From positions 310,001-374,000 of the forward strand of contig JAFDVQ010000005.1 in NCBI GenBank assembly GCA_018268915.1: a DNA stretch of 64,000 nucleotides, in the 5' to 3' direction. Positions 17,104 through 41,448 of the stretch are shown here, piece by piece. The DNA is from Acidobacteriota bacterium (GTDB lineage: Bacteria > Acidobacteriota > Terriglobia > Terriglobales > Acidobacteriaceae). Under the pieces are notes generated by a model that had not been told where the DNA came from, ran no database searches, and saw nothing but the letters and a program-made list of their open reading frames with translations. The position numbers were made by a program, and so were the translations under genes. Every line of letters starts with the position of its first letter. Position 1 is the stretch's first letter.

Positions 17104-17760
17104 TCAGCCCTCCTTCGCTGGATTCAGATTCAGCAGATGCGAACTCATCGTGCCGTGCTTCGCCGCATCCAGAGTGGCGTCAAACACCTTGGGATAGGTT
17201 CCGCAGCGGCATAGGTTTCCGCTTACCGCATGTTTGACATCAGCAAGACTTGGATTGGCATTGCGCTTCAAGAGAGCAGCACAGCTCATCACCATACCCG
17301 GTGTGCAGAATCCGCACTGCATCGCGTCGTGTTTGATGAAGGCGGCTTGAAGTGGGTGAAGCTGCTCACCATGCGAAAGGCCTTCGATTGTGGTAATCTT
17401 GCGCCCCACAGCGTCCACAGCCAGCGTCATGCATGCCAGCTCAGGCGTTCCGTCGATCCAGAGGGTGCAGGCAGAACACGACCCCCGGTCGCATACGACC
17501 TTCGTGCCGGTCAGGTTAAGGTGATCGCGCAATGTCTCCGCAAGCGTATAGCGCGGCTCGACAGTAACTGCGTGGTCTTGTCCGTTGACGTGAAGCTTGA
17601 TGGGTACGGCATCTGGTCCTACAGCTGCACCATGAGAAGCAGCTTGGTGAGCATCTTGAGCCAGCGCAGTCGCCGTGTCCAGAACTGTTGTGGCTGCCGT
17701 CAGTCCCGCGCTCTTCAGAAAACCGCGACGAGACACCTCAATCTTGGGCGTGTCCGACAT
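17104..17760 (-). CDS. paoA: Aldehyde oxidoreductase 2Fe-2S subunit with TAT signal (PaoA-like)
   Basis: 218 residues. The twin-arginine signal SRRGFLKSAG (about residues 10-19) is followed by a hydrophobic stretch to about 35, so the folded complex is exported to the periplasm. Two 2Fe-2S domains: plant-type CDRGSCSACTLWIDG...AC, and the alpha-helical domain with CGFCTPGMVMSC and NLCRCGTYP. It carries electrons from the molybdenum site. It is the first gene of the paoA-paoB order. The dedicated PaoD-type cofactor chaperone is not in the window, so maturation must use one encoded elsewhere. Confidence 0.94.
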   Translation of the reverse strand: MSDTPKIEVSRRGFLKSAGLTAATTVLDTATALAQDAHQAASHGAAVGPDAVPIKLHVNGQDHAVTVEPRYTLAETLRDHLNLTGTKVVCDRGSCSACTLWIDGTPELACMTLAVDAVGRKITTIEGLSHGEQLHPLQAAFIKHDAMQCGFCTPGMVMSCAALLKRNANPSLADVKHAVSGNLCRCGTYPKVFDATLDAAKHGTMSSHLLNLNPAKEG

Positions 17761-23240: not shown

Positions 23241-26200
23241 TCAAATCTCGAAAATCTCACGTTCCTCGGTCGCCATGGGAATTGTGGAAGCCGAATCAGG
23301 GAGCGCTTGGCGCCTCGCCTGACATACAACTTCTGCAAGACGCTCGGGAGTTTGACCCTCGAAGATGTCGCGTAGCGAAATCGTCACTCCCAGCTGCTCG
23401 CGTATCCGAGCGATCATCATGGTTCCCATCAGAGAATGACCTCCCAGATTGAAGAAATTGTCTGATGGATCGACAGCCTCAACGCCAAGCAAGTCTCTCC
23501 ATATGTCGACGATGACGGTCAACTCATCGTGATTAAGGGGATTGACATTGCCACGAGGAGAGGTCATGGCCTCGACTGAAGTCGAACTCGCATACGATGC
23601 GAGATCGACTGTGCTTGTCAGGATTTGAGCGCCGCTCCATCCACCCAGCACTCGCCGTACAACCTCGATGCCTTCATCGTTTGTCATGGCACGAGACATT
23701 CTCTTGTCGTAGTACGATTCCAGGCCTTCAGGAATTTCTATATCTGCGTTCATCCCGACTTCGCGCCACGCATCGAACCCGATTGCAATCGCCGGAATCT
23801 TCAAGGAACGCCGACAATGCTCAGCGAAGCTGTTCTCAAACGAATTGGCTGCCGCATAGGCACTCTCGCCTGGCGCCGGGAGATAGGCACTGAACGATGA
23901 GCAGAGCAGCAGAAAATCAATGCTATTTCCCATCAGGAGCCCTGCAAGCACTCGTGATCCCGTCACCTTTGCTCTAAGAATCGCTCGAGCATCTTCTGTT
24001 GACTGCGATACGATTCTGCTTGCGCCCACAATTCCTGCAGCGTGAATCACTCCGTTGATTGGTCCGAATTCAGCTTGTGTCTTTTCAAATACCGACGCCA
24101 TGGCTCCCATGTCAGCGACATCAGCGGACATGAAAAGGACGCGTCCTCCAGTTTTCTCTAAATCCTGCATTCGGCGAATCTGGCGAGATACGCGATCCCC
24201 TTCTCCTCGCGCAGCGATCCATGACGCCCACTCTGTGCGATCGGGGAGAGCAGTGCGGCCTACCACCACTACCCGTGCATCGTGGCTCAAAAGTAGATGC
24301 CTGGCCAGAACGCTTCCTATCCCGCCCACACCACCTGTGATTAGATAAGTTCCGCCCCGACGAAATGGTGATGCAGCACTTGCTTTCAAAGGAGCGGGCA
24401 CCCACTCTTTCTGCCATCGCATGCCTCTGCGATAGGCCACGCGGAGACTCGAACCCACTGTAGAAAGTTCGTCCAGCAAGTGCTGTACCATACCGCCAAT
24501 ATCATCCACGGGAAAATCGACGTCGATGCAACGACATTCCGCACCACTAAGCTCAGCCTCGATCGCTGAGGCGAGGCCCGTCAGCTCACCATCTTCCGAA
24601 TCTGCGACTGACTCTCCGGCCACGCTTTCAGTCGAGGCGGTGACGAATTCAAATCTTCTCAGGTGACGAAGAAGAGGACCAGCAGCCTGAAGGATGGCGG
24701 TAATAAGTTCGAGTCGGGATCCCGACTCATCGTTCAACTCAGGTAGACATATGACCGCGCTTGGTCGCAATCCAAAATCGTTGAGCCCATGCCACATCAA
24801 TTCGAAGTCCGTTCTGCTCGACGGACTGACAACGGCCCCGTCCCCGTGCAGGACAAACTGTTCACCCTTTCTTACGCTGAAAACATTGTGGCCTTGCTTC
24901 TGGAGGGCCGAAATCATGGCATCTGTTAACTGGTCGCCACCGCCAATCACGATCCAGCACTCTAGCCCTCCATTTTGTGTCGGCAGAACGATGCTGGCCG
25001 GTGGCGTGCTCCGCCAACTCGGAGCATAAAACCACTTGGAGATATCGCCTCGCTTGGCGGAAAGATCGCTATCGGAAAAACGTGATAGCGGTTGTATTGG
25101 CGTCGATGCATCGGTATGGGCGACTGGTGGTTCGGTCGAATGGCGCTTCCGCTCGAATGGATAGGTCGGCAAAGCTATTCGACGCGGCGTTTCCTCCTGG
25201 TCAAGTTCATTCCAGCGAACGGACAAGCCGGATTCCCACGAGGTTGCCACAATGCGATGGAACGCTTCGACGTCAGAAATGTGTCGTTCCTCCGATCCCA
25301 AAGAAGGGACGAACAAGCTTTTCGAAAGCCTCTGACGCGCAAGTCCTATCAATGTTTCCCCGGGACCAACCTCAATCATCAATCTAGGTTCCTGGCCCAG
25401 TGCGTCGATGCAGTGGCTGAAGCGTACCCGCGACAGAATTTGATTCGCCCAATAATTCGGATCCATCGCTTCTGCCTTGGTGATCCAGGTTCCGGTGACA
25501 TTCGAAAGCCACGGAATTTTAGGTTCTTGAAGCTCCACTGCCGCAACCGCCCTGCGGAAGACCTTCGCCGCATCCGCCATCAGCGGAGTGTGAAACGCGT
25601 TCTTTGACGCGAGCCGGACCGTAGCGACTCGCTCAGATGCCATCCTGCGCTCTAGCTCTTCGATCGCCTCGACTCGCCCAGACGCAATCGAGACTTTTGG
25701 CCCATTCTCTGCCGCGATCCACGTGCCCTCGACGAGTCGTGCCATCAGGCCCTCCGGAGGAAGCATCACCGCCAGCATCCGACCTGCCGGTGTTTGGCCC
25801 ATGAGACGCCCACGCTGTGCTGAGAGAGCTATTGCATCTCGGAACGAGAACACGCCTGAGATGTACGCTGCACTGATCTCACCCAGGCTGTGACCGACCA
25901 AAATTGATGGCACTATCCCGATAGAACGGAGCCTTTCGGCAAGTGCGCATTCCACGAGCACAAGTGCCGGTTGTGCGATTTCCGTATCGCGCAACCGGTC
26001 GGCGGCTTCAACCGCATCCAGCTTTTCGACCAGGAATGGACCAAGATCGATTCCCTGCTCTCTTAAGAGATCGCAGCCTTCATCGATCATCTGACGAAAA
26101 GCGCGATCTTCACCGTAGAGCCCTCCGACCATCCCAGGGAATTGCTGACCTTGACCGGGAAACAGAAAGACGACGTCATTCTCGAGATTGCCCTCGAATA

Positions 26201-27803
26201 TTCGCTTCTTCGGCCGCTCGTTGAGAAGGTTGGAAGCGTCTCCGCAGCTAGATGCCACCACGGCTCGACGGAAGTTAAAAGCCCGGCGACCTCGCTGCAA
26301 CGTTGTGGAAACCTCTGCGGCGGAAATAGACTGAGCCGTACCGAGGTACTTCGAGAGTTGCTCGCATGCTGAATTCAGCGCTGCCGATGTCTTCGCCGAA
26401 ACTGGGAAAATACGCGGCTTTGTTGAGCCCGACTGGAGCCGAGCATACGTAGTCGGCGCACTACTCATCGTGACGTGAACATTGGTGCCGCCGATTCCGA
26501 AAGAGCTGATGCCGGCCCACCGTTCCGAGTCACCACCCCAGTCAATAGAGGACGAACTAATCTCAAACGGCGTGTTCTCGAGTCCGAGAACCGGATTTGG
26601 TCGCGTAAAGGTCGGTGTGGAAGGGATCAAGCCATGCTTCACTGCCAGTGCGGCTTTGATCAGCCCAGCAATTCCTGCGGCCGCATCGGCGTGCCCAATG
26701 TTAGCCTTCACTGCGCCCAGTCTTAGGGGATTATTTCGCTGACGTGCGCCGAAAATCTGCGCCAGGGCCGCGATCTCGATAGCGTCCCCTAATTCCGTTG
26801 CAGTACCGTGCGTTTCAACGTAGCCCACGCGAGTTGAATCAACGCCCGCCGCAGCAAGACTCGAGCGGATTACATCAGCCTGACCGTCTACGCTGGGAGC
26901 CGTATACCCTACCTTTGTTGCCCCATCGTTATTCCAGGCGGAGCCTCGGATAACCGCGATGATAGAGTCTCGATCGACAATAGCGTCTGACAACCGCTTC
27001 AGGACCACAGCTCCTGCTCCACGTCCAGGTACGGTCCCGCCAGAATGAATATCAAACGGACGACAGTATCCATCGGCAGACAAAATCATGCCGGGGATAT
27101 ACGAATAGCCGGTATTCTGCGGAAACGGGATCGAAACACCCCCGGCAATGGCCATCGAGCATTCCCGTTTCAAGAGACTGGAACATGCGAGGTGAACAGC
27201 AGCGAGCGATGTTGAGCATGCGGTCTGTACAGTTACGGCGGGCCCGCGCAGATTCAGCTTGTAAGCCACTCTGGTCGACAAGAAGTCTTTGTCGCTGGCC
27301 AGCATCAACTGGTAACCACCAGCATTCGCCAAAATAGACGGGTCAGCTAGCAGTCTAAGCACGTAGGTGTTCATTCCAGCGCCAGCAAAGACGCCTACCT
27401 GCTCACCGTCTCCGGTATGTCCCGCATCTTCCAGAGCTTCCCACGCGCACTCGAGAAATACCCTTTGCTGCGGATCGAGAATCTCCGCTTCCCGGCTGCT
27501 CAGGCCAAAAAAGTTCGCATCGAAGTTCTCTGCGTCCTCAAGAGTGTTCCCGCGTCGAACGTAGTTCGGATCATTGAGCTTGGCATCTTCGACTCCGGCA
27601 TCACGAAGTTTCTGCTCCTCAATGCTTGTGAGCAGGATGTCCCCAGCGACAAGGTGGTCCCAAAACTCCTGAGCGTTTCGTGACTGAGGGAAGCGAGCAC
27701 TCATTCCAATGATCGCGATGCCTTCTCCCCAAGCCTCCGGAGTAGATCTGATGCGCTCCGTGTCACGGACTCGTAAATTGTTCTCGTATTCAGAAGACAT
27801 CAC
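23241..27803 (-). CDS. Type I polyketide synthase module KS-AT-KR-ACP
   Basis: 1520 residues, one full cis-AT module. KS (about 25-455): Cys196 in TACSTS, His332 in ETHGTATELGD, His371 in KANIGHADAAAG. AT (about 543-830): FPGQGQQFPGM, Ser639 in GHSLGE; the specificity motif NAFH (735-738) is the malonyl-CoA form. Post-AT linker RRIALPTYPFERKR (about 874-887). KR (about 1150-1330): TGGVGGIG, Ser about 1302, Tyr1316, Asn1320; it has no LDD motif. ACP (about 1425-1490): Ser1457 in LGGHSLMG. No DH, ER or TE, so the unit is expected to add a beta-hydroxy C2 unit and hand on. The GTG at 27803 overlaps the upstream stop; ATG at 27800 is also possible. It is the last gene of the operon. Its AT may also serve the AT-less module in the upstream gene. 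Confidence 0.95.
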   Translation of the reverse strand: MMSSEYENNLRVRDTERIRSTPEAWGEGIAIIGMSARFPQSRNAQEFWDHLVAGDILLTSIEEQKLRDAGVEDAKLNDPNYVRRGNTLEDAENFDANFFGLSSREAEILDPQQRVFLECAWEALEDAGHTGDGEQVGVFAGAGMNTYVLRLLADPSILANAGGYQLMLASDKDFLSTRVAYKLNLRGPAVTVQTACSTSLAAVHLACSSLLKRECSMAIAGGVSIPFPQNTGYSYIPGMILSADGYCRPFDIHSGGTVPGRGAGAVVLKRLSDAIVDRDSIIAVIRGSAWNNDGATKVGYTAPSVDGQADVIRSSLAAAGVDSTRVGYVETHGTATELGDAIEIAALAQIFGARQRNNPLRLGAVKANIGHADAAAGIAGLIKAALAVKHGLIPSTPTFTRPNPVLGLENTPFEISSSSIDWGGDSERWAGISSFGIGGTNVHVTMSSAPTTYARLQSGSTKPRIFPVSAKTSAALNSACEQLSKYLGTAQSISAAEVSTTLQRGRRAFNFRRAVVASSCGDASNLLNERPKKRIFEGNLENDVVFLFPGQGQQFPGMVGGLYGEDRAFRQMIDEGCDLLREQGIDLGPFLVEKLDAVEAADRLRDTEIAQPALVLVECALAERLRSIGIVPSILVGHSLGEISAAYISGVFSFRDAIALSAQRGRLMGQTPAGRMLAVMLPPEGLMARLVEGTWIAAENGPKVSIASGRVEAIEELERRMASERVATVRLASKNAFHTPLMADAAKVFRRAVAAVELQEPKIPWLSNVTGTWITKAEAMDPNYWANQILSRVRFSHCIDALGQEPRLMIEVGPGETLIGLARQRLSKSLFVPSLGSEERHISDVEAFHRIVATSWESGLSVRWNELDQEETPRRIALPTYPFERKRHSTEPPVAHTDASTPIQPLSRFSDSDLSAKRGDISKWFYAPSWRSTPPASIVLPTQNGGLECWIVIGGGDQLTDAMISALQKQGHNVFSVRKGEQFVLHGDGAVVSPSSRTDFELMWHGLNDFGLRPSAVICLPELNDESGSRLELITAILQAAGPLLRHLRRFEFVTASTESVAGESVADSEDGELTGLASAIEAELSGAECRCIDVDFPVDDIGGMVQHLLDELSTVGSSLRVAYRRGMRWQKEWVPAPLKASAASPFRRGGTYLITGGVGGIGSVLARHLLLSHDARVVVVGRTALPDRTEWASWIAARGEGDRVSRQIRRMQDLEKTGGRVLFMSADVADMGAMASVFEKTQAEFGPINGVIHAAGIVGASRIVSQSTEDARAILRAKVTGSRVLAGLLMGNSIDFLLLCSSFSAYLPAPGESAYAAANSFENSFAEHCRRSLKIPAIAIGFDAWREVGMNADIEIPEGLESYYDKRMSRAMTNDEGIEVVRRVLGGWSGAQILTSTVDLASYASSTSVEAMTSPRGNVNPLNHDELTVIVDIWRDLLGVEAVDPSDNFFNLGGHSLMGTMMIARIREQLGVTISLRDIFEGQTPERLAEVVCQARRQALPDSASTIPMATEEREIFEI

Positions 27804-30800
27804 AAATCTGCTCCAATCGGTGCCGCAATCGAGGCAGTCTTGCTATCTAAGAAAGTCGCGAGCGTTGCAATTGTCGGATGACGGAATAGATCCACTACAG
27901 CGATATTGACTTGGAACTCACGCTTGAGCTGAGCATGCAGTTGGACAAGCAGCAGCGAATGTCCCCCAAGATCGAAGAAGTTCTCTCGGAGACCAGGCTT
28001 GTCCACGTGAAGGAGATGAGACCATATCTCGCTCACTCTCCGTTCGGTCTGGCTGCCTGGAGCAGCGACTTCTACAGCCGCCCTGGGAGATTTCTGTGGC
28101 AGCGGAAGTCGCTTACGATCGATCTTTCCATTAGGCGTTTGCGGAAATTCGTCGACTGGCATAAGAACCGACGGCACCATGTAATCCGGCAGGAAGCCGT
28201 AAAGCCACGATCTCAGCATGGCTGTGTCGCCGACACCATCCTCGAAGCGAATGTATGCGACCAGTTGCTTCTCGTTTTCTCGTTCCAAGAGAACAACCAG
28301 GGCCTGACGGACGGATGGGTGCCGCTCTATGGCAAGTTCAATTTCTCCAGCCTCAATCCTATGGCCGCGCAGCTTGATCTGGTGATCGGTTCGTCCAAGC
28401 AGTTGGATCTGTCCGTCGCTCAGGTATCGAGCCAAATCTCCGGTTCTGTAAAGTTTGCGCAATCCAGCCGAATCGAATGGATCGGACAGGAACCGCTGTG
28501 CCGTAAGTTCAGACCGCTTCCAATACCCGCGTGCCACCCCTAGACCGCCAATGAACAGCTCGCCAGTTACGCCAACTGGAACAGGCTGAAGCTCGTCGTC
28601 CAAAATGTGCATCTCCGTATTTGCGATCGGACGTCCAATCAGAATTGGATTTTCACCGCTCCTTACCCGGTGAACTGCTGACCAGATAGTTGTTTCGGTA
28701 GGACCATATAAGTTCCAAAGCTCCTTACCGCGGGCGACGAGACTCTCAGCGAGATCGGGACTCAATGCCTCTCCACCGCACCACATGCGGAGTGTCGTTC
28801 GGCCGGTCCAACCAGATTCGACCAGCATTCGCCAGGTAGAAGGAGTCGCTTGCAGCACAGTTGCGCCGGATGTATCCAAAAGATCCGCGAGAAGCTCCGG
28901 ATTTATCGCCTGTTCGCGCGATGCCAGCACAAGCTTTGCACCACACAGAAGAGGTCCAAAGATCTCCAGCCCTGCGATGTCGAACGAGATGGTAGTAACT
29001 GCAACGAGCGTATCGTCAGCTCTCAACCCAGGCTCTTTCATCATTGAGCCAAGTAGATTCACCAGGGCCTGATGATGAATTTCTGTTGCCTTCGGATTGC
29101 CGGTTGTTCCAGAGGTATAGATCAAATAGGCCCTGTCTGTCTCCACAACGTCGTCTGGGACCGCCTCAGAACTGCAGACGCCGGCTTCTTCAATCGGCAG
29201 AAGAACCGCACTTGTTGCTGGTATGTCGTTGAGCAGGTCGCGTTCAGTAAGAATGAGAGCGACCTGAGAATCAGACAACAAGAACTCAGTCCGTCGTGGC
29301 GGCATCGCCGGGTCGAGCGGGAGGTAGGCAGAGCCAGCCTTAAGAATTCCAATTAGACCGACTACCATCTGCATTCCGCGATTCATGTACAGTCCAACAA
29401 CAGACCCACGTCCCACACCACGGGTGCGGAGATCCGAAGCAATCCTGTCCGAGTGAGCGTCGAGTTCTCCATAGGTCAATGAGCGGTCGCCCATCTCCAG
29501 TGCTATCTTCGTGGGAGTCTCTTGAGCCTGCGCACGAAACCACGCTGAGACACTGGCATACGGCGGTAACGGTGCTTCTGTAGAATTCCAATCGTCTATG
29601 ACTTCGCGGCGCTCCGCTTCGCACAGCAGAGCCAAACGAGAGATCGGCAGGTCTGGCTCGCTGGAAGCGCGATCGAGGATTTGCATATAGGCCCGAAGCA
29701 TGCGCTGAATAGTCTCTTCATCGAATATGTCCGAATTAAATTCGAAACTGCAGCGAAAGTGACTTTCATACGGGTACACGTCTGCCGCTATATCGAATCT
29801 TGCCCAGGACCTCGTAAAATCCACCTGCTTCATCTCAAGTTCGCTGAAACGCATGTTCGGCATCGCACTGTTGTGCAACGAAAATAGAACTTGAAACAGA
29901 GGACTGCGATCGGTGCTCCGCTCGGGCTGCAAAACCTCTACCAGCTGATCGAAAGGCGTGCGCTGATGCTCAAAGGCCTCCAGTGTCACTGCGCGTACGC
30001 GTTGCAGCAATTCGACAAAACTCGGATTCCCCGTCAAATTCATTCGCAGAACGAGATTGTTGACAAAGAAACCGATAAGGCTTTCGAAGCCGCTCTTCAA
30101 GCGCCCCGCAGTTGGAGTTCCGATCAGAATATCCTCTTGGCGCGTGTAGCGTCGCAGCAAGACACTGAAAGCTGCGGAAAGCACCATGAAAAATGTTGAG
30201 TTGTTGGCCCGCGCCAGCTTTTGCAGTTTCTCTGTCAATTCAATACTCAGATCTACAAAGACGCGGCCTCCGCGAAATGTCTGCAGGGCTGGTCTGTTGC
30301 GATCAATTGGCAAAGCGAGTTGGGGCAACTCACCGCCAAGCTTTTCCTCCCAATACGCCAGATCGTCACTCGAAACTCGGTTCTCTTCTTCAGCCTCCCA
30401 GTAGACAAAGTCCCGAAACTGCAAAGCCAAAGGCGGGAGGGGGCAGCGTCCTCCTTCGATCAGCGCCTCATAAATCTGACCTAGTTCCTGTACGAGCAGG
30501 CTGATCGACCAGCCATCAGAGATGATGTGATGCATGACGAGCAGTGCCACATGCTCGTTCTCCCCGGTCTGGTATAGATGAACCCGAAACAGCAGTTCCT
30601 TATCCAGTACGAATGGACGCTGCGCCTCGGACATCATCGATTGATGAAGATCAGCTTCAGGACCGGCGAATGTCGATGACTTCAGCTCGTGGAAATCGAC
30701 CGCCCAGTCGCTTCCCGCCCCTACTAAGGCGTAAGGCATCCCTTCATGATCGCGAAAGTGCGTGCGCAACGACTCGTGTCTCATCAGAATCGTTCGCAAG

Positions 30801-33800
30801 GCTTCTTCGAACACACCGCGATTCAGAGGACCAAGCAATCGGAAACCGATGGATACGTTGTAGACGGGGTTCCCAGGATCCATGCGATCTAGAAACCAGA
30901 GCCGCCTTTGAGAACGCGACAACGGGAACTCCAAAGCAACAGGATTCTGCCTTTCCTCTTGAAGCTTCTCTGGTTCGCTCAGCAGCTTCAAGATCTCCTG
31001 CTTCTGGCTCGCCAGTTGGCTGCGAATCTCCGCATTCATCACTCCCTTAGGCGCGTCGCAGCTTAGCCGCCCTTGGTCGACCGAAAGCACTACACCTCTG
31101 CTTCGTAGATTCCTAAGCAGTTCGCTCGCAGTTACCTTCGCGTGGCTCGCTGACGGGTTGTCTTTACCGGTGTTTGTGGTGATCTGCCGGGCATCCTCGC
31201 GATTCAGAGATTGAGGAGTCCCCTCTTCATCGGATGCAATTGCCGGACTCTCAAACTTGTCTGCGGGCAGCAGTGCAGTGATTCTGCGCGTCAGCTCACC
31301 AATCGTCTCAGCGTCGAATGCGATGGTCGCGGAGAGCTTACCTTCGACTCCAAGAGCTTTCCCAAGTTCATTCCGAAGTTCTAGAGCGATCAGTGAGTCC
31401 ATGCCCAGCGCGCCGAGACGGTCTTCGTCACTGAGCTGCTCGCTGGGAACTTGCAATTGACACACCCTGCAAACCACTTGTCTGACGAGGGTGGCGACTG
31501 CCTCCGCTCGTCCACCTTGCACAAGACCTGATAAGTCGGCAACTGCAATCGGCTGCACTGGCGGCACTCGCACACCATGTTGGACGGAGTTCCGATTCTG
31601 GCTCAGTATGGTCTCCGAGCCCGATGAACTCGAATCACGTTTCGCGATCAGCACATGCTGCCCCATCTTTGACGCCGGAGAATCATTTGCAGGGAACGAC
31701 ATCGGGCTTTCAAACCCGTTTCTTAGCAAAACCTCGCACCAGTGCTGAGCGTTGAGGAGAGGGTTTTCGGTACGCTCGGAATCCTCGAAATGCTGCCATC
31801 CCTCGATCAACCCGGTCGTCATGTCGAAACAGACTTGGTGTTCGGTCGTTTCAATAAGCAACAGGAGTCCACCTGGTGCAAGCAGGCGATGGACCCGTTC
31901 CAGCGATCTTGGCAGATTGCGGGATGCATGCAGCACATTCGCAGCTAGCACTACATCGAAATAGCCAACAGGAATTCCTTGCTCCTCTGGCTCGCGATCC
32001 AGATCCAGGAGCGCATATCGAAGAAACGGAGTGTCCCTGAGACTCTGTCGCGCGCGGCGCAGAAACAGCTCCGAGACATCAGTGAACCAGTATTCCGCTT
32101 GCTCAGGCTGCAACACTGACGTCACAGCTGTGGTGGTGGCTCCGGTTCCCGCGCCCAGTTCGAGAATTCGCACATTTCGCTTCCGGCCCCATCCCTCAAC
32201 TGCAAGCCGGATGGCATTCGCTGCGATCGCATTGCAGTAACGCGCTTCTGAGCTTTCCCGATACAAAGCATTTGCCAGATCGAAGGATCCGTCCGGGAAG
32301 AGAGTCACAAGTGCACTGGCACGACCCGTGAGCACATCTTGAAGCAGATCTCCGCAGCGGCGGAGATAGACAAGCATGCCCGGATCCCGTCTCAGAGCTT
32401 CCTCGACAGCGGGCCACAGAGACTCGACCGAAGTTTCACGGAATCCCTCGGACGGCTCGTACTTTTCGTTCGTTTCAAGTAGTGCGCCCGTTGCCGCAAG
32501 CCGTCGCAGCCATCTCGAGACGATCTGGCCGTAGATCTTCTGGAAACCGCAGTTGCGCATCACGTCTTCGCCACTTACTGGGCTCCCATTTGCAAATGCG
32601 CCTGCGTTAACCAGGACGTTCTGAGCGTATGCAAGAGTCAGCTTTTCAAGTGCAGCCCATCGCTCGGGGTAGCCTCTCGGGTCCCAACCCAGTGGGCCTC
32701 TTTGACTTTCGCGAGCAGCTTCAGAACAGACCAGTTGCCAGACCTGCTCGCGCTCAAGCCGCCGCTGTGTTTCTGGTAAAGCTCCTAACCAGAACCGCTC
32801 CCGGTGAAATGGATAAAGGGGCAGGGCGACTCGCCTTGAGGGTTCCTCCCACGCCGACAGCATTCCGCCTTTGAGAAAGGCGGCCGACTTCTGATCCAGC
32901 GAGCCACAACCGGCCTGACTCGCCGTTTCATCGTTCCCGGTCTTCACTGCGTCGACCACACCCCCGCCAAGCCACTGCTTCAGATGATTGGCGGCTGTAA
33001 GTGCATCGGGTGCCGTTACCGTTAATCTCTCTCTGAGAATCGCGCGCGTTTCGATAGCGCTTCTACAGATGTCCCCAAACTCCGCATCCGTTTTTCGAAG
33101 GAACGAGACATACAAACTTGCCAGGCTTCGAAGTGCTTCAGGATCAGCTGCGGATATGCACAGCAACTTCTCTACCGATGACTTTTCCGGACCCGCCGCG
33201 GTCTCCGATGGCCGGAAGGAACCCACGATCACGTGCGCATTGGTGCCACTGAAGCCAAACGAGCTTACCGCAGCATAATGTCCATCCCTCTCATCCGGCC
33301 ATGGCGTCAGTGTTTGTGGAATCTCAATCGGCCATTTCTTCCAGTCGATGCGGGAATTCGGAGATGAGCAATGAAGATGAGGAGCTATCCCGCGGCCGCC
33401 CTGCAACATCAGAACTGCCTTGATGAACCCCGTCAGACCTGCTGCTCCCTCGCCATGGCCTAGATTCGTCTTGACGGATCCAACACGAAGCGGGTGATGG
33501 GCGCTGCGGCCTCTTCCGTAGACGTTGCCGATCGACAGGAACTCCATCGGATCGCCGAGTGGCGTACCTGTTCCATGCGCCTCAACATAACTCACCTCGC
33601 TCGCATTCAGATCTGCATCTGACAACGCGGACAGCATGACCTTCTGCTGGGCGCGGACATTTGGAGCTGTGAGTCGCGGGCTTCGTCCGTCCTGATTTAC
33701 TGCCGTCCCGCAAACAATGGCCTGGATGGGATCTCCATCGCGGCGTGCATCGTCCAGTCGCTTAAGCACAACTACGCAGCATGCCTCACCGCGCACGTAC

Positions 33801-34519
33801 CCATCAGCGGCATCGTCAAACGTATGGCATCGTCCGCTGCGAGACAGCATTCCGGTTCGCGAGAAGCAGATGTGCAACTCCGGAGAGAGAATCAGATTCG
33901 TTCCCCCTACGATGGCAAGGTCTGACTCGCCCCGTCGCAGACTCTGCACTGCGTGATGCACGGCAACGAGGGACGACGAGCAGGCTGTATCGATAACCTC
34001 TGCTGGCCCGTAGGTACCTAGAAAGTGAGCGATTCGTCCCGCCGCAACACTGCAGGCTCCGCCAACTCCTGTGTAACCGTCGATCAGGCGCGGGTTGTCG
34101 ACCAGCATACGCGCCCAGTCATTGTTGGACATACCAATCCAGATCCCGGTCGACGAACGAGCCAGTCTCTGCGGATTGATAGAAGAGCGCTCGAGTGCTT
34201 CCCACGTCAGCTCCAGCAAAAGTCGCTGCTGCGGATCAGCTCGCGATGCTTCCCGGGAGCTGATTCCGAAAAAACTTGCATCGAATGCATCAATGTCCGA
34301 AATAAATCCGCCATGCGAATCGTAGGTTGTGCCGGGCTCGTCGGGGTTGTTGCCTCCGAATGAGGCGGCATCCCATCGCTCCGAAGGTACAGTACTGATC
34401 AGGTCTCTTCCAGTTGCAAGAGCATCCCAGAACTGTTCGGGGGTTGAGATTCCGCCAGGCAGACGCAGCGCCATCCCAAGAACGGCAATCGGCTCTCGAA
34501 CCTGATCCCGCCTGACCAC
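27800..34519 (-). CDS. Hybrid PKS-NRPS: KS-(no AT)-cMT-ACP-TubC dock-C-A-PCP
   Basis: 2239 residues. KS (about 8-440): Cys180 in TACSSS, His315 in EAHGTGTPLGDP, His355 in KTNLGHGEGAAG. A KS-to-AT linker (about 445-560) then runs straight into the post-AT linker RRVALPLYPFHRERFW (572-587 region), so the AT of about 300 residues is missing. C-methyltransferase (about 590-965): ELGAGTGATT as SAM site, LIE and PGG motifs. ACP: Ser1042 in LGMDSL. TubC_N-like docking domain at about 1128-1182. Condensation domain: HHIISDG at 1330-1336. Adenylation domain with YTSGTTGNPK and NLYGPTETT; pocket residues, read by eye against PheA, give DILQWGLIWK, a glycine-like code. PCP: LGGHSL near the C-terminus. 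GTG start with GGAGG six bases upstream, overlapping the thioesterase stop by one base. Confidence 0.95.
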   Translation of the reverse strand: MVRRDQVREPIAVLGMALRLPGGISTPEQFWDALATGRDLISTVPSERWDAASFGGNNPDEPGTTYDSHGGFISDIDAFDASFFGISSREASRADPQQRLLLELTWEALERSSINPQRLARSSTGIWIGMSNNDWARMLVDNPRLIDGYTGVGGACSVAAGRIAHFLGTYGPAEVIDTACSSSLVAVHHAVQSLRRGESDLAIVGGTNLILSPELHICFSRTGMLSRSGRCHTFDDAADGYVRGEACCVVVLKRLDDARRDGDPIQAIVCGTAVNQDGRSPRLTAPNVRAQQKVMLSALSDADLNASEVSYVEAHGTGTPLGDPMEFLSIGNVYGRGRSAHHPLRVGSVKTNLGHGEGAAGLTGFIKAVLMLQGGRGIAPHLHCSSPNSRIDWKKWPIEIPQTLTPWPDERDGHYAAVSSFGFSGTNAHVIVGSFRPSETAAGPEKSSVEKLLCISAADPEALRSLASLYVSFLRKTDAEFGDICRSAIETRAILRERLTVTAPDALTAANHLKQWLGGGVVDAVKTGNDETASQAGCGSLDQKSAAFLKGGMLSAWEEPSRRVALPLYPFHRERFWLGALPETQRRLEREQVWQLVCSEAARESQRGPLGWDPRGYPERWAALEKLTLAYAQNVLVNAGAFANGSPVSGEDVMRNCGFQKIYGQIVSRWLRRLAATGALLETNEKYEPSEGFRETSVESLWPAVEEALRRDPGMLVYLRRCGDLLQDVLTGRASALVTLFPDGSFDLANALYRESSEARYCNAIAANAIRLAVEGWGRKRNVRILELGAGTGATTTAVTSVLQPEQAEYWFTDVSELFLRRARQSLRDTPFLRYALLDLDREPEEQGIPVGYFDVVLAANVLHASRNLPRSLERVHRLLAPGGLLLLIETTEHQVCFDMTTGLIEGWQHFEDSERTENPLLNAQHWCEVLLRNGFESPMSFPANDSPASKMGQHVLIAKRDSSSSGSETILSQNRNSVQHGVRVPPVQPIAVADLSGLVQGGRAEAVATLVRQVVCRVCQLQVPSEQLSDEDRLGALGMDSLIALELRNELGKALGVEGKLSATIAFDAETIGELTRRITALLPADKFESPAIASDEEGTPQSLNREDARQITTNTGKDNPSASHAKVTASELLRNLRSRGVVLSVDQGRLSCDAPKGVMNAEIRSQLASQKQEILKLLSEPEKLQEERQNPVALEFPLSRSQRRLWFLDRMDPGNPVYNVSIGFRLLGPLNRGVFEEALRTILMRHESLRTHFRDHEGMPYALVGAGSDWAVDFHELKSSTFAGPEADLHQSMMSEAQRPFVLDKELLFRVHLYQTGENEHVALLVMHHIISDGWSISLLVQELGQIYEALIEGGRCPLPPLALQFRDFVYWEAEEENRVSSDDLAYWEEKLGGELPQLALPIDRNRPALQTFRGGRVFVDLSIELTEKLQKLARANNSTFFMVLSAAFSVLLRRYTRQEDILIGTPTAGRLKSGFESLIGFFVNNLVLRMNLTGNPSFVELLQRVRAVTLEAFEHQRTPFDQLVEVLQPERSTDRSPLFQVLFSLHNSAMPNMRFSELEMKQVDFTRSWARFDIAADVYPYESHFRCSFEFNSDIFDEETIQRMLRAYMQILDRASSEPDLPISRLALLCEAERREVIDDWNSTEAPLPPYASVSAWFRAQAQETPTKIALEMGDRSLTYGELDAHSDRIASDLRTRGVGRGSVVGLYMNRGMQMVVGLIGILKAGSAYLPLDPAMPPRRTEFLLSDSQVALILTERDLLNDIPATSAVLLPIEEAGVCSSEAVPDDVVETDRAYLIYTSGTTGNPKATEIHHQALVNLLGSMMKEPGLRADDTLVAVTTISFDIAGLEIFGPLLCGAKLVLASREQAINPELLADLLDTSGATVLQATPSTWRMLVESGWTGRTTLRMWCGGEALSPDLAESLVARGKELWNLYGPTETTIWSAVHRVRSGENPILIGRPIANTEMHILDDELQPVPVGVTGELFIGGLGVARGYWKRSELTAQRFLSDPFDSAGLRKLYRTGDLARYLSDGQIQLLGRTDHQIKLRGHRIEAGEIELAIERHPSVRQALVVLLERENEKQLVAYIRFEDGVGDTAMLRSWLYGFLPDYMVPSVLMPVDEFPQTPNGKIDRKRLPLPQKSPRAAVEVAAPGSQTERRVSEIWSHLLHVDKPGLRENFFDLGGHSLLLVQLHAQLKREFQVNIAVVDLFRHPTIATLATFLDSKTASIAAPIGADL

Positions 34520-35274
34520 TACAGGCCTCCACTGATCGGTATAGCTGCTAGCAAGGTTTGGCGCACATGCGAGACCAGAAGCTCACACGCGTCTTGCAGG
34601 TAGTGATGGCCACCGTCCAGAAAGAAAACCTCGAATGTGCTGGACGTCTGTTCCCGCCAAGCCTCCACCTGCGGGCGAGTCAAAGTTGCGTCGGATCCCC
34701 CGGCAAACGCAGTTATCGGGCAGTCGAGCGGATCTGCCTCGCGCCGCTGATAGCCTTCCAGCAATTGAATGTCCGCGCGCAAGGTGGGAAGAAAGCTTGC
34801 GAGGAATTCTTTCTCAGCCAGAACGGGTGCTGGAATGCCGCCATAGCGCGTCTGTACGGCATGTATCAGCTCCTGGTCTTCCAGATGTCCAATTGGCGGC
34901 AGTATCGGTTCACATTGAGGAGCGCCCGCTGCCGACACAAACAGATGCATCGCACTCTGGCCGCTTTGTCTGCGTAGCTCGTGAAGCGTTTCAAATGCGA
35001 GAATGCTGCCCCAGCTGTTGCCAAAGAACGAAAACGGCTTGCCTCGATCCAGGGAGTCGAGTACAGAGCGCGATAGATCTCGCACTAGAGCCTCCATGCT
35101 CTGATACGGTGCATCATGAAATCGTGACTCTCTTCCCGGCAATTCAACCGATATCGCTTCAATCTCCGGCAGCAGTCGCTCCCTCCACCCACGGAAGGCA
35201 GAGGGGCCGCTCCCCGCATGGGGCAAGCAGTAAAGCTGAAGCACTGAGCCACGGGATGGAGCGCGTCTTAGCAT
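34519..35274 (-). CDS. Type II (editing) thioesterase of the NRPS/PKS cluster
   Basis: About 251 residues, alpha/beta hydrolase of the stand-alone TEII family. It frees carrier proteins that hold wrong or stalled acyl groups. Seen: LYCLPHAGSGPSAFRGW, the nucleophile elbow GNSWGS (Ser87), an Asp region DPLDCPITAFAGGSD, and the catalytic His in DGGHHYLQ. ATG at 35274 is chosen because it begins just before the conserved LYCLPHAG block and lies 19 bases after the permease stop. A GTG at 35358 overlapping the permease is the alternative. It is coupled to the following PKS-NRPS gene by a one-base overlap. GNSWG instead of the more common GHSMG is notable but still has Ser. Confidence 0.9.
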   Translation of the reverse strand: MLRRAPSRGSVLQLYCLPHAGSGPSAFRGWRERLLPEIEAISVELPGRESRFHDAPYQSMEALVRDLSRSVLDSLDRGKPFSFFGNSWGSILAFETLHELRRQSGQSAMHLFVSAAGAPQCEPILPPIGHLEDQELIHAVQTRYGGIPAPVLAEKEFLASFLPTLRADIQLLEGYQRREADPLDCPITAFAGGSDATLTRPQVEAWREQTSSTFEVFFLDGGHHYLQDACELLVSHVRQTLLAAIPISGGL

Positions 35275-35293
35275 ATTGTTGACGAACCGACGA

Positions 35294-36109
35294 TCAGTAC
35301 TGAGCCAGTGTGCCTTCCCTTCTTCCCCGCCGAACGGTCGCTGAGAAAATTGCGGCACTCACCGGAAGAAGAATTAACGCCATCACGGCCAACGTTGTCA
35401 GAGGCTGAACAACCGCTCTGAAAGATGCTCCATTCAGCATCGTGAGTCTGAGCGCGTTCAGCGAATAGGTGACAGGTATCAGAGATGAGAGCCTTTGCAT
35501 CCACATGGGCATAACGTCAATGGGAAAGTAGGCCCCGCCAAGAATACTTCCTAACCCGCCGAGAATCCACGTAATAGGATCGCCCTTCTTCAACCATACG
35601 ATTGCGGAAGCCGAGAGCACCCCGAACGCAACGAAAATGGAAATCGAAAGAAGGAGGACCAGCAGCGTTAAAGGCAAGTTCATGTGGCTGAGGTCTACCC
35701 CGAATATGAGGACGCCGCCCGTGAGAATTAGCAGTAACTGTAATGCTCCTGAGAGCAAGCTGTAGATGGATGAGAACAGCACGATGGGGACGCAACCAGT
35801 TTGGCTGCAGAGCATGGCCTCAAGACACCCTGTGACCTGCGCTGTACGAATCGATTCCGAGAACATCCTGAGCATCAGATCGAAATAGCGGGCAAACGCT
35901 ACGCCTATCAGCGCGAAAGGGAAATAGCGCAGGTGTGACGCACTGAGCGAAGCCGACGCAGTCGAGGGAATCAACCGGCCAACGAAATGCAGAATCACCA
36001 GCAGCATCAGGGACTCGACCAGGCCCATCATGAAGGCTGCCTGGTACCCTGATTCGATACAGAAGTCTCGCTTGACAAAGGCGAAAGCCTTGCGGAGAAG
36101 TGGCATCAT
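35294..36109 (-). CDS. ABC-2 type exporter permease of the cluster
   Basis: 271 residues, about six membrane helices (for example LVESLMLLVILHFVGRLI, LLSGALQLLLILTGGVLIFG, LPLTLLVLLLSISIFVAFGVL, TTLAVMALILLPVSAAIF). ABC-2 permeases work as dimers with an ATPase to push polysaccharides, lipids, drugs or natural products outward. ATG-ATG start; it overlaps the upstream ATPase stop by ATGA, so the two are translated together. Its position inside the operon suggests export of the metabolite or self-protection. Substrate is inferred from context only. Confidence 0.88.
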   Translation of the reverse strand: MMPLLRKAFAFVKRDFCIESGYQAAFMMGLVESLMLLVILHFVGRLIPSTASASLSASHLRYFPFALIGVAFARYFDLMLRMFSESIRTAQVTGCLEAMLCSQTGCVPIVLFSSIYSLLSGALQLLLILTGGVLIFGVDLSHMNLPLTLLVLLLSISIFVAFGVLSASAIVWLKKGDPITWILGGLGSILGGAYFPIDVMPMWMQRLSSLIPVTYSLNALRLTMLNGASFRAVVQPLTTLAVMALILLPVSAAIFSATVRRGRREGTLAQY

Positions 36110-36951
36110 ACGTGACTCCGGCCAGACAGATGCAGGCGATAGTAGTCAAGGACCGAGAGCCCTTCTTCCCTGAGCTTGTTGATCGATTCACCGCACTTGA
36201 TCTTTCCTTCGGCAACGATCAGCACCTTATTGCATAGCAAGGAGGCCTCTTCCGGCCTGTGGGTGGCGATCAGCAACGTCTTTTTTGAATTGCGATGAAG
36301 TGTAGATAAGATGAGTTCGACCATCTCATCGCACGCCAGCGGATCCAGAGCTCGCGTCGGCTCGTCGAGGACCAGAACATCCGGCTCCGCAATCAATACC
36401 CTGGCCAATGCCAGCCGTTGCTTCATTCCCGAGCTGTAGGTGGATACGGACCTGTTCTTGTCATTCTGCAGACCGACCAAATCCAGCAGAAATTCGACTC
36501 GCTCCCGCAGTTCGCGTCCGCATAGATTGTCGAGAGCTCCGAAGAACTCTAGATTTTGTGCGCCAGAGAGCCGCCAGAAGAAGCTTCGCTCTTCGTTGAA
36601 TACAAAACCAACCGATCTCCTGATTTCGACGCCTTCACTCAAAGTGCTGTGGCCATTCACAACCACGCTTCCCTCGGAAGGTAGAAGAATTCCTCCAATT
36701 AGCTTCAGCAGAGTCGTCTTCCCTGCGCCGTTTGGTCCCATCACAGCGATGCGGTCGCCGGGATACACTCGCAGATTCACATCAGAAAGTGCGGTAAAAA
36801 CACGGCGTCTCTGTAATGGGGCAAGTACCCATTCGCGGTAGCGTTTCGGAACTGGGAAGCGCATTGTGACATCATGAACGTCAATCAGAGCAGGTTCACT
36901 GCCAGCCTGATCCGACGTGAGAACTGGCTTGAAGAATTCGGCGGCAATCAT
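36106..36951 (-). CDS. ABC transporter ATPase of the cluster exporter
   Basis: 281 residues. Walker A GPNGAGKTT, signature STYSSGMKQRLALARVL, Walker B DVLVLDEPT and H-loop LIATHRPEE are all present. After an N-terminal extension, the nucleotide domain carries DVTMRFPVPKRYREWVLAP before the first strand, like the ATPases paired with ABC-2 permeases that export polysaccharides or antibiotics. The ATG at 36951 overlaps the NRPS stop codon (ATGA). A longer frame to 37014 lies inside the NRPS gene and is unlikely. It is expected to pair with the permease encoded next. Confidence 0.93.
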   Translation of the reverse strand: MIAAEFFKPVLTSDQAGSEPALIDVHDVTMRFPVPKRYREWVLAPLQRRRVFTALSDVNLRVYPGDRIAVMGPNGAGKTTLLKLIGGILLPSEGSVVVNGHSTLSEGVEIRRSVGFVFNEERSFFWRLSGAQNLEFFGALDNLCGRELRERVEFLLDLVGLQNDKNRSVSTYSSGMKQRLALARVLIAEPDVLVLDEPTRALDPLACDEMVELILSTLHRNSKKTLLIATHRPEEASLLCNKVLIVAEGKIKCGESINKLREEGLSVLDYYRLHLSGRSHV

Positions 36952-39900
36952 CCGTTTCTTGCCTCCGCCGTATCCAATTCCTTCGTTCGTATTTGCTGCG
37001 CCTCGTCCATCCATGAGCGCATCATGTGCGCCACTTCTCGGCCGTGTTCGATCAGCATCGTCTCATGGGACCCGGGAATTGCATGAACATCTACATCCGC
37101 CTGAGAAAATCCACTCCAACCAAAATCCTTATTGACACGAAGGTCCTCTTTATTTCCGATCAGCTTGATGCAACCTGACCAAGGCTCAGGCCTGTGTCTG
37201 TAAAGCAACCGGCAGTAGTTCGCTCTATGTTGATGAAATCGGTCGTTCTCGCTGACTAAAGAGGCGCTCGCGATACCTGCCTTGCGAATCGCCAGTTCGC
37301 GTATTGCCCGGACTCGTTCGGTCCCTTGCGCTCGCACAATCTCCCACAGAACTTCCGCTACATGCTTGACTCTCGAACCGCAGCTGTATAGTTCCCGCCG
37401 GATGATATTGCGCAGCGTCGGGCGCTCGGTATCGAGCAGTACAACCAGCTGCACTTTTTCGCCCTCTTGCTCCAAAATCCTCGCAATCTCCAGTACCGCT
37501 ACACCTTCGACACAGTTGCCACCCAGGAAGTAGGGGCCTCTAGGCTGTATCACTCGGAGTTCCGCCAGATAGTCGCGTGCAATCGCCTCTACGCTTGCAT
37601 AATCCTCACCCTGTCCATCCATCCAGCGCGGCTGAAACCCGAATACCGGCTGATCATCACCGAGGTGGGGGACGAGATGAGACAGGAAAAGCAGCGGCCC
37701 GCCCGGGTCGTGATATCCGGCCAGGAAGAATAATGGCGCCCTCTCCCCCAGGGGTTGAACGGGCACCACGCGCTTCCATTGCGGCGCCTCGCAGGTATAT
37801 ATGAAGTTTCGCGTGGAAGATTCGAAGTGGAGGTGGCTCGCCAGTCCGGCGATCGTCGGATCTGCAAAAATCGCTTGCAAAGGCAGTTCCGTGTTTAGCT
37901 CTGCTCGAATACGAGAAGCGACTCGCGCCGCGAGGAGAGAATGCCCTCCTAGTTCGAAAAAATTGGCACTCTTCTCTATCCGGTCGACTTGCAGCACCTC
38001 GCGCCAGATCGCTTCTAGCTTGCGTTCAACGTAATCGGTTGGCGCGCTGAATATCTCATCATCTGTCCTGTCTTCAGATGAGTCTTGCTTTAAGCCTTGA
38101 ACTGCCTTCGGCGGAAGGTTCAATAGCGCTTTTCTATCGATTTTGCCGTTTGGCGTCTTGGGAAAGCTATCGAGCTCTACGTACTCCGCAGGAATCATGA
38201 TCTCCGGCAAAACAGATCGAAGACTTCTGCGCAAATCAGCCGGCGTCGCTGAAGCTCCCTCTAGCGGCCTCCAATACGCAATCAGGTATTTTTCGCCAGC
38301 TCTATCCTCTCGGACGATTGCAATCGCCTGCGCAACGGCTGGATGACCTTCGAGCGCGGTCTGAATCTCTTCGAGTTCGATTCGGAATCCACGAAGTTTT
38401 ACCTGCTGATCCAATCTGGAGACAAATTCGAGGCTTCCGTCTGGCAATCGACGCACCAGATCTCCGGTCCGATATAAGCGCGCTTCAAGATTCTGATGGC
38501 GTCTAAGGACAAACTTCTCTGAAGTCAAATCAGCCTGTTTTCGATAGCCGCGCGCCAGACCCGCTCCACCTATGAAGAGTTCTCCCGTTTGGCCGGGCAG
38601 CGAGGGTTTGCCGGTTTCGTCAAGAACATAGGTTTGTGTATTGGCGATAGGATGTCCGATCGGTATGCGTTCAACCGGCGCTTTCATCCGCTGCACGGTA
38701 GACCAGATCGTTGTCTCAGTCGGACCATAGAGGTTCCACAGTTCAGCACCGGTTGACAGTAGCTGTTCGGCGAGTTGTCGCGGAAGCGCCTCGCCTCCGC
38801 ACAGAACCTTCAGACCCGGCTTTCCCTTCCAACCGGATTCCAGAAGCAGACGCCATGTTGCAGGCGTGGCTTGCATAATCGTGATGTCGAATTCACTGAT
38901 CAATCGAGCCAGAGCATTGGCGTCGGTGAGTGCCGCACCGGGCGCGATCACTAACTGAGCGCCGCTTACTAGCGGCAGGAATAGTTCCAGTCCGGAAATG
39001 TCAAATGACAGCGTCGTTACGGCAAGTAAGCGATCTGTGACACCTATTCCCGGTTCTCTTTGCATGGACGCCAGCAGATTGACTAGCGACCGATGCTGGA
39101 TTTCAACTCCCTTCGGCGTTCCGGTTGAACCCGACGTGAACATCAGATACGCAAGATCTTCCGAATTTGCCGGCGCACTCGGTGAAGTACTGAGATCCGA
39201 CGTATGCCCCTTCTCTAGCTTGTCAAGGCAGATGAGTGACGGAACGTTGTCAGGTATGCGATCGAGCAGTGAACTCTCTGTGATTATTGCGGCCGGTTCG
39301 CTATCTTGAAGGATGTGCGCAAGCCGCCTCGCCGGAAAGGTCGGATCCAGCGGAACGTAGGCTGCGCCTGCCATCCATGTAGCCAGCGGAGCGACAACCA
39401 GATCGATCGTCCGGCTCAGGCACAAGGCCACGAGATCACCCGGTCTGACCCCCGATTCCCGTAGTCGGCGCGCAAGAAATCTCGAACGATCACATAACTC
39501 CCTATATGTAAGTTGCTCGGGCCCGCACATTACCGCAACCTTTTCGGGAGTCGATTCCGACTGGAGTCTTACCCAGTCCGGCACGCATTGAACAGGCAAT
39601 TCCAGCGAAATACCGCTCTGACTCCGGAACCAATCCTTTTCCTGCTCGGGGCTCATCGCTGCTAGTTGCCCCAATGGCTCGTCTGGCATGCTTGCCATCT
39701 GGGTCGCGAGAGTCTGATAACAACCAGAGAAGCATCTTATAGTCTCTGGATCAAAGAGTGCGCCGTCATACTGTATCGATCCATGGAACTTGCCATCCGC
39801 CTCCCACATGTACAGTGTCATGTCGTTCGCGGTGCCCCCACTCTCAACCTCATAGTCTTCTGCCCGCGGAGTGTTCAGCAAAATGAACGCATGTTGGAAA

Positions 39901-41144
39901 AGAAGAGAGCGGCTGGGATCGCGATTCGGCAGAAGTTCTTTCACTAGAAACGCGAAAGGAACGTCGGCATTGCACAGAGAGTCCATTACCGTAGACCGGA
40001 CGCGTCTCACTAACTCTCTCGAGGTATTTTCAGGCGACACCTCCGTTCGTAGCAGTTGCGTGTTGATGAAGCATCCAATCAGCTTTTCAAGATGAGTTGT
40101 GACGCGTGTCGATACGGGTGTGCCTACAACGATGTCTTTTTCACCGCTGTATCGGCTCAGCAACGCCGTGAAAACCGCGAGCAGCACCATAAAGGGAGTC
40201 GCCGCACAATCTCGGCCAAGTTGTTTCAGCGCTTCAGAACACGCCGTGTCCAGTTCGAACGCGAATAGCCGCGCCTCGTAGGCGCTGGAAGGACTTCGCG
40301 GATGATCGAGCGGAAGATCAATCAGCGTCGAAGCGCCTTTTAGCTTCTCCTTCCAGAATCCAATTTGCCCACCCATTGGGGGCGAACTTACTCGTTTTCT
40401 TTCCCACAGGGCATAGTCAGCGTATTGAACGGGAAGTTCCTGCCCATCTGGTGCCTCTCCCGCCAACAACAGCACATAGGTGGAACGAAGCTCCTTGAAG
40501 AAGACTCCGAGTGACCATCCGTCGCATACGATGTGGTGCACAGCAAAGACAACAATGGAGTTCTCTGCTGAAAGCCGAATAAGAGCCACACGGAATAGTT
40601 GTCCGGAGCCAAAATCGAATGGGCGCGCTCCAAACCTCTGTATCGTTGCTTTGGCCTCTTTCTCGCGCTCGTCATCTTTCCTTTCACTCAGGTCGAATAG
40701 CTCCAGGCATGGGTTCGAATCTTCGAGCACCTCCTGAGCAGGAACTCCCGCTACTTCGGTGAACCGCGTACGCAGACTCTCATGCTTGTGGACCAGCGCT
40801 CGTAAAGCCTGTTCCAGGACTTCAGAATTCACCCTCGCTTGAATCCGCGCCCAGGCTGTGATGTTGTAAGCGGTACTATTCGGATTTAGTTTCTGCGCAA
40901 ACCAGAACCCTTCCTGCGCAAAAGACAGAGGAACAGGTTTTCCTGCAGTCGGACGACGGCCAATTCGTTGCGGATTGCTCGCGGAAAGAAGTGCCCGAAT
41001 AAGCTCCGACTTGTGTTCGGCCAGGCTCTCTTCAATTTCCTTGGTGATGCGGCCGGGAGGTGCGCTGCAGCGCAAGCGGTCTCCCTCGACACTCACGTGA
41101 ATGTCAAGCGTGCGCAACTCAGAGATCAGCCGTTCGGCGCTCAC
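36948..41144 (-). CDS. Nonribosomal peptide synthetase TubC dock-C-A-PCP-TE with a Cys thioesterase
   Basis: 1398 residues from a GTG at 41144 whose product begins as TubC_N docking domains do (SAERLISELRTLDI). The frame is open to an ATG at 41309, but that adds 55 residues without family features. Order: TubC_N (1-52), condensation (HHIVCDG 203-209), adenylation (about 515-1010; MFTSGSTGTPKG, NLYGPTETT), PCP (Ser1069 in LGGHSL), thioesterase (about 1125-1375). The pocket residues, read by eye against PheA, give DILQLGLIWK, which I recall as a glycine code. The thioesterase nucleophile site is GGNCVEG: Cys1211 replaces Ser, with Asp1238 (LLDTERP) and His1360 (GSHETML) completing the triad. 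It is first in the operon but should act last in assembly, because only it carries a releasing domain. Confidence 0.94.
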   Translation of the reverse strand: MSAERLISELRTLDIHVSVEGDRLRCSAPPGRITKEIEESLAEHKSELIRALLSASNPQRIGRRPTAGKPVPLSFAQEGFWFAQKLNPNSTAYNITAWARIQARVNSEVLEQALRALVHKHESLRTRFTEVAGVPAQEVLEDSNPCLELFDLSERKDDEREKEAKATIQRFGARPFDFGSGQLFRVALIRLSAENSIVVFAVHHIVCDGWSLGVFFKELRSTYVLLLAGEAPDGQELPVQYADYALWERKRVSSPPMGGQIGFWKEKLKGASTLIDLPLDHPRSPSSAYEARLFAFELDTACSEALKQLGRDCAATPFMVLLAVFTALLSRYSGEKDIVVGTPVSTRVTTHLEKLIGCFINTQLLRTEVSPENTSRELVRRVRSTVMDSLCNADVPFAFLVKELLPNRDPSRSLLFQHAFILLNTPRAEDYEVESGGTANDMTLYMWEADGKFHGSIQYDGALFDPETIRCFSGCYQTLATQMASMPDEPLGQLAAMSPEQEKDWFRSQSGISLELPVQCVPDWVRLQSESTPEKVAVMCGPEQLTYRELCDRSRFLARRLRESGVRPGDLVALCLSRTIDLVVAPLATWMAGAAYVPLDPTFPARRLAHILQDSEPAAIITESSLLDRIPDNVPSLICLDKLEKGHTSDLSTSPSAPANSEDLAYLMFTSGSTGTPKGVEIQHRSLVNLLASMQREPGIGVTDRLLAVTTLSFDISGLELFLPLVSGAQLVIAPGAALTDANALARLISEFDITIMQATPATWRLLLESGWKGKPGLKVLCGGEALPRQLAEQLLSTGAELWNLYGPTETTIWSTVQRMKAPVERIPIGHPIANTQTYVLDETGKPSLPGQTGELFIGGAGLARGYRKQADLTSEKFVLRRHQNLEARLYRTGDLVRRLPDGSLEFVSRLDQQVKLRGFRIELEEIQTALEGHPAVAQAIAIVREDRAGEKYLIAYWRPLEGASATPADLRRSLRSVLPEIMIPAEYVELDSFPKTPNGKIDRKALLNLPPKAVQGLKQDSSEDRTDDEIFSAPTDYVERKLEAIWREVLQVDRIEKSANFFELGGHSLLAARVASRIRAELNTELPLQAIFADPTIAGLASHLHFESSTRNFIYTCEAPQWKRVVPVQPLGERAPLFFLAGYHDPGGPLLFLSHLVPHLGDDQPVFGFQPRWMDGQGEDYASVEAIARDYLAELRVIQPRGPYFLGGNCVEGVAVLEIARILEQEGEKVQLVVLLDTERPTLRNIIRRELYSCGSRVKHVAEVLWEIVRAQGTERVRAIRELAIRKAGIASASLVSENDRFHQHRANYCRLLYRHRPEPWSGCIKLIGNKEDLRVNKDFGWSGFSQADVDVHAIPGSHETMLIEHGREVAHMMRSWMDEAQQIRTKELDTAEARNG

Positions 41145-41448
41145 AGGCAACACTATTATGCGATTTCTAATTACCGGTGGAAGATCGGTGTAAACAACTG
41201 CTTCGATCTCGAAACGAGATCCCGACCGAGCAAAATCCTCATACAGCAAACGTGCGAGGCGATAGCGCACTCTCCTCGAACCCTTGCCAGCCGAAACACA
41301 ACAACGCACATCGTACCAAGGACAGGCTATAAATACCCTTACACTCGGGGGCTACAACAGATACCCATTTAGTAATGAAAATTGGTAGTAATGTAACGTT
41401 ACCTCGTTTTGCAGCAGTCAGGTCCCGACAATTAGAGAAAGCGCGAGA
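41145..41448. promoter_or_regulatory. Divergent control region between the NRPS operon and the phosphopantetheinyl transferase
   Basis: Visibly more AT-rich than its surroundings. It holds a perfect palindrome GTAACGTTAC (41393-41402) and a direct repeat AGTAATG (41371-41377 and 41387-41393). On the minus strand CATAAT (41155-41160) lies ten bases before the preferred GTG of the NRPS, so a -10 box with a nearly leaderless transcript is possible. No regulator gene is beside it. All assignments are tentative. Confidence 0.35.

Follow-up and report, generated by a model that had tools for sequence, protein, structure and literature searches.

A terminal cysteine thioesterase of an acidobacterial polyketide-peptide assembly line with a type I triad and a predicted release that forms no four-membered ring

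Gene cluster and assembly line

The stretch of Acidobacteriota DNA analysed here (64,000 nucleotides, called the window) contains a hybrid polyketide-peptide gene cluster whose termination protein, P0001, ends in a thioesterase (TE) domain. The genes of the cluster are the following:

23241 to 27803, minus strand: P0006, PKS module KS-AT-KR-ACP, C-terminus EEREIFEI (possible TubC docking tail)
27800 to 34519, minus strand: P0005, PKS-NRPS hybrid KS-MT-ACP-TubC-C-A-PCP without AT, A code DILQWGLIWK
34519 to 35358, minus strand: stand-alone type II thioesterase with a Ser nucleophile (GNSWG)
35294 to 36109, minus strand: ABC-2 membrane protein, same operon as P0001, conserved in relatives
36106 to 37014, minus strand: ABC transporter ATPase, same operon as P0001, conserved in relatives
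36948 to 41309, minus strand: P0001, NRPS termination protein, TubC-C-A-PCP-TE, 1453 aa
41449 to 42363, plus strand: 4'-phosphopantetheinyl transferase

Within P0001 the domains that precede the TE are:

40992 to 41132, minus strand: TubC-type N-terminal docking domain (domain search)
39636 to 40934, minus strand: condensation domain of the release module
38142 to 39563, minus strand: adenylation domain of the release module, code DILQLGLIWK (read by hand)
37830 to 38021, minus strand: PCP presenting the chain to the TE

The first GTG of the P0001 reading frame probably precedes the actual start, which likely lies near the TubC domain. The C-termini of P0006 and its orthologs are acidic (EEREIFEI, EEREVFEI, EEREEFEI) and P0001 starts with TubC. 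Since these termini resemble docking elements, the probable order of the line is P0005 (KS-MT-ACP and a Gly-type module), then P0006 (malonate and ketoreduction) and finally P0001 (Gly-type module and release).

The thioesterase domain and its triad

The TE domain and its key codons are placed as follows:

36951 to 37802, minus strand: type I TE domain as modelled, 284 aa (Pfam profile, model)
37512 to 37514, minus strand: TGT codon of the nucleophile (Cys97 in the model), within GGNCVEG (sequence, alignment, model)
37506 to 37508, minus strand: Glu codon two residues past the nucleophile, a place held by Gly in most TEs
37431 to 37433, minus strand: catalytic Asp, Asp124 of the model, Cys+27, right after beta6 (position I)
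37065 to 37067, minus strand: catalytic His (His246 in the model), within PGSHET and past the final core strand

The domain matches PF00975 with an E-value of 2.1e-10 and 41.7 bits, above the curated cut-off of 26.4, and the PCP (residues 1097-1160) is just N-terminal to it, as is the case for type I NRPS TEs. An earlier note on this DNA had read the nucleophile codon as Cys, and the minus strand from 37523 to 37503 confirms it, since it reads ggt ggc aac TGT gtc gaa ggt (Gly-Gly-Asn-Cys-Val-Glu-Gly); the span given there, 37505-37522, was correct in substance and one to two bases short at either end. The same note described the Asp and His of the triad as intact and the enzyme as apparently active. 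Both residues were indeed found, at Cys+27 and in PGSHET, and are conserved in orthologs, and with the Cys they make activity likely.

In the GxSxG motif of thioesterases Gly is normal two residues past the nucleophile. The window TE has neither GxSxG nor GxCxG, as its pentapeptide is GNCVE, with the final Gly changed to Glu. Gly occupies this position in 68 of the 83 aligned domains (the 82 TE domains of the survey described below plus the type II TE), and 14 of the 15 exceptions are Cys TEs. Among the five members of the window clade, the window TE has Glu, its nearest relatives have Glu and Asp, and the remaining two have Gly. Because two clade members have Gly, and other surveyed Cys TEs have N, A, S, D or W, we regard a residue other than Gly at this place as variation apparently tolerated within the group and do not treat it as excluding the domain from the type I TEs. 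Nevertheless Glu or Asp is unusual here for a nucleophile elbow, and could lower or alter the activity.

Conservation among relatives

A family-wide search gave three close orthologs of the TE (57, 55 and 50% identity over the TE), which come from an Acidobacteriaceae MAG, Terracidiphilus gabretensis and Acidobacterium sp. S8 (genome scan), and a genome scan added a fourth, from Acidobacteriaceae KBS 89, with 41% identity. In the contig scan no relatives were found with the single TE as query, and they were found with an alignment-based query. The search placed T. gabretensis in the genus of the window itself, which therefore probably derives from a relative of Terracidiphilus. Orthologs are sparse: 2 of 80 genomes of the window's genus have one, as do 6 of 397 genomes of the order at E < 1e-40, one of these being a weaker match.

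The Cys is kept in all four orthologous TEs (GGNCVEG, GGNCVDG, GGYCVGG, GGVCVGG), and in the alignments the whole triad (Cys, Asp, His) is unchanged across the first three and is also present in KBS 89. This conservation rules out a sequencing error or chance as the source of the Cys.

The conservation also bears on the suggestion that the window TE is degenerate and that the chain is released by the type II TE (34519-35358) or by spontaneous hydrolysis. The Glu two residues past the nucleophile would fit such a decay, and so would the fact that many other Cys TEs of the family have lost the catalytic His, so that degeneration does happen; however, all three triad residues are conserved in the clade over 41-57% identity, and we consider degeneration improbable.

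Cysteine and serine thioesterases in the survey

Homology to the window TE was used to gather 82 TE domains, of which 72 belong to the family or order of the window; their nucleophiles were taken from the alignment, and the type II TE was added as outgroup. With the outgroup excluded, 41 of the 82 have Cys and 41 have Ser, and the 72 local domains divide into 39 Cys and 33 Ser, a Cys share that is biased upward, to an extent not known, by the query being itself a Cys TE. Despite this bias, Cys is plainly common in the TEs sampled.

On a quick tree the Cys or Ser label needs at least five changes, so the Cys TEs do not form a single clade. Together with its four orthologs the window TE makes up an all-Cys clade, fully supported and long-stemmed, whose relation to the other TEs, hydrolytic or cyclising, the tree does not resolve; the one type II TE included, that of the cluster, sits on a long branch. 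Since Cys is present in about half of the TE domains surveyed from these Acidobacteria, it is by itself a poor indicator of unusual ring chemistry, and for mining beta-lactones or beta-lactams the better guides are where the catalytic Asp sits and which residue is predicted to come last.

A side observation of the survey is that 23 of the 41 Cys TE domains have no His in the catalytic column, some of them perhaps by alignment error. A sizeable group carries Pro or Arg there (LPVYPAGM; domains L009, L014, L015, L016, L044, L046, L085, L100 and others), comes from these Acidobacteria and from a Desulfobacterales MAG, and includes some stand-alone PCP-TE or TubC-TE proteins.

Fold model and position of the catalytic Asp

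The AlphaFold model used was that of a run with 67 sequences (mean pLDDT 91.1), a run with four sequences (pLDDT 52) having been discarded. It presents the window TE as an ordinary type I TE fold of the alpha/beta hydrolase kind, in which the Asp directly follows strand 117-123, which itself comes after the nucleophile strand and helix. Position II, after beta7, holds no conserved residue in the ortholog alignment (NKED, NEEE, NEEE, NETL). The nearest folds are the TEs of 7crn, AB3403 (4zxh), Pks13, NocB and EntF, with Z of 22-24, and the identity to the nearest type I TE structures (7crn, AB3403 4zxh, NocB, EntF) is 21-25%. EntF and NocB share the type I fold and the position I Asp with the window TE and differ from it in having a Ser nucleophile.

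The earlier note had linked the Cys to TEs that make strained rings, such as those of obafluorin (ObiF) and sulfazecin (SulM). If the window TE used its Cys in this way it would close a beta-lactone or beta-lactam, and a Cys nucleophile in an intact triad is what it has in common with these enzymes, the two known four-membered-ring NRPS TEs, which are also alpha/beta hydrolases. In ObiF1 and SulM, however, the catalytic Asp lies after beta7 (position II), a placement tied to four-membered ring formation, whereas the Cys TE of AB3403 has it after beta6 (position I), like nearly all NRPS TEs (PMC11298585, PMC6668435; the beta-strand numbering differs between the two papers). By the alignments and the model the Asp of the window TE is at position I, not II. 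Its fold is also less similar to those of SulM and ObiF1 (Z 20, 12-14% identity) than to ordinary TEs; as the Z values are close together the fold alone would not decide, and in the model it is the Asp position that does. The domain is therefore best described as a type I NRPS TE with a Cys-Asp-His triad of predicted geometry and the Asp at position I.

Sequence searches point the same way, as neither ObiF nor SulM was among the PDB sequence matches that the window TE gave with E-values up to 1. With the type II TE of the cluster as query and E-values up to 10 they were equally absent, although both are reported to fall with the type II TEs (PMC11298585, PMC6668435), so such searches cannot separate the two groupings. 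Moreover, the window TE reads Asn-Cys-Val in place of the Gln-Cys-Asn motif of the SulM type.

Among known enzymes with Cys, AB3403 of Acinetobacter baumannii (PDB 4ZXH/4ZXI) is close in design: it has Cys (GGWCFGG) with the Asp at position I, it is a C-A-PCP-TE module, and its A domain activates glycine. Its TE is among the best sequence and fold matches of the window TE, yet at 22-24% identity; it differs in having the standard Gly at Cys+2, and its product chemistry is described as uncharacterised.

Substrate of the release module and release chemistry

The specificity positions of the A domain were read by hand, anchored on the core motifs. The key residues of the resulting code, DILQLGLIWK, are common to the release modules of the orthologs, and the second A domain in the window, that of P0005, has DILQWGLIWK; we take both to be glycine-type codes. 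Glycine has no beta-carbon and carries no beta-heteroatom. The terminal residue of the release module is predicted to be of this type and so probably lacks a beta-OH or beta-NH; if the reading is right, the TE-bound residue would have no beta-carbon and a beta-lactone or beta-lactam would be impossible. In contrast, the residues at the chain end of ObiF1 and SulM bear a beta-OH or a beta-NH-sulfonate. As the string DILQLGLIWK gave no match in the literature searched, the glycine reading draws on general knowledge and on the Trp-Gln contact of glycine-activating DhbF, where this pair closes the pocket (PMC11253843).

No transaldolase or sulfotransferase was recognised among the cluster genes identified, the flanking genes being sampled. 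On this ground, together with the position I Asp and the glycine-type code, we reject beta-lactone or beta-lactam formation as highly improbable; the link of the Cys to strained rings is not supported, and Cys is present in half of the survey.

We estimate at about 0.82 the probability that the window TE is a catalytically competent type I Cys-Asp-His TE which releases its chain without a four-membered ring, its activity, substrate and chemistry being predicted. From what is known of the family, the chain would move from the pantetheine of the PCP to the Cys as a thioester, and the acyl-Cys would then be attacked either by water or by another nucleophile whose reaction closes no four-membered ring. 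The released product would be a hybrid polyketide-peptide with a glycine-type residue at its end.

That a Cys TE with a position I Asp can be active is shown by BulbE, the bulbiferamide TE, which has the triad Cys961-Asp988-His1097 with the Asp after beta6 and a Cys-Asp spacing of 27, the same as here; BulbE makes an indolyl-amide macrocycle, and a Cys-to-Ser mutant shifts it to hydrolysis (PMC11536411). This likeness, taken from the published description, is an argument for a further reading, in which Cys would have been selected for cyclisation or aminolysis, its acyl-thioester being a better electrophile than an oxoester, and the product would be an unstrained macrolactam, macrolactone or amide. 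The strict retention of Cys in the window clade agrees with it. On the other hand the substrate of BulbE is a Trp-containing ureidopeptide, and its indole nucleophile is not predicted here. The predicted chain offers no obvious nucleophile, as there is no N-terminal amino acid module, the residues are of glycine type, and the one hydroxyl derived from a ketoreductase is near the C-terminus. In addition, TEs from many settings commonly have Cys, which by itself gives no pointer to cyclisation. We hold this selection for cyclisation or aminolysis to be a serious contender, at somewhat less than even odds.

Supposing that the TE is active, linear release by hydrolysis has about an even chance, unstrained cyclisation or aminolysis comes only just behind, and a four-membered ring would be very surprising. 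The first two are placed about equally because the predicted chain has few internal nucleophiles, yet the BulbE literature ties Cys to aminolysis. The idea that release may be unusual would thus survive only in its weaker sense of cyclisation or aminolysis, by analogy with BulbE, and not as strained-ring formation.

It could also be proposed that these proteins are a distinct acidobacterial clade of Cys TEs whose acidic residue two places past the nucleophile belongs to the active site and directs release into an unusual reaction, forming an amide, an ester or a ring, that known TEs do not show; we judge this at least as improbable as degeneration of the domain. The Cys of the window TE is real and conserved, and the domain is ordinary for its group and probably active.

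Other features of the window

Like its counterparts in the relatives, the KS-MT-ACP part of P0005 lacks an AT, and since the sole AT recognised in the cluster is that of P0006, an AT must act on this part in trans. Residues 1-1084 of P0005 match a separate KS-MT-ACP protein of the relatives (64%), its internal TubC corresponds to the N-terminal end of their NRPS (31/48), and the remainder matches the second module of that NRPS (about 65%; C domain 60%). The KS-ACP protein and the first NRPS module that lie between these parts in T. gabretensis and the MAG are missing from the window cluster. By these comparisons P0005 looks like a fusion that followed the loss of two modules, with the junction near 30950-31270, and the internal TubC suggests loss in the window cluster rather than gain in the relatives.

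At 13605-17760, on the minus strand, the window also carries an ordinary three-gene molybdopterin hydroxylase of the xanthine-dehydrogenase type, with a Tat signal on its iron-sulfur subunit.
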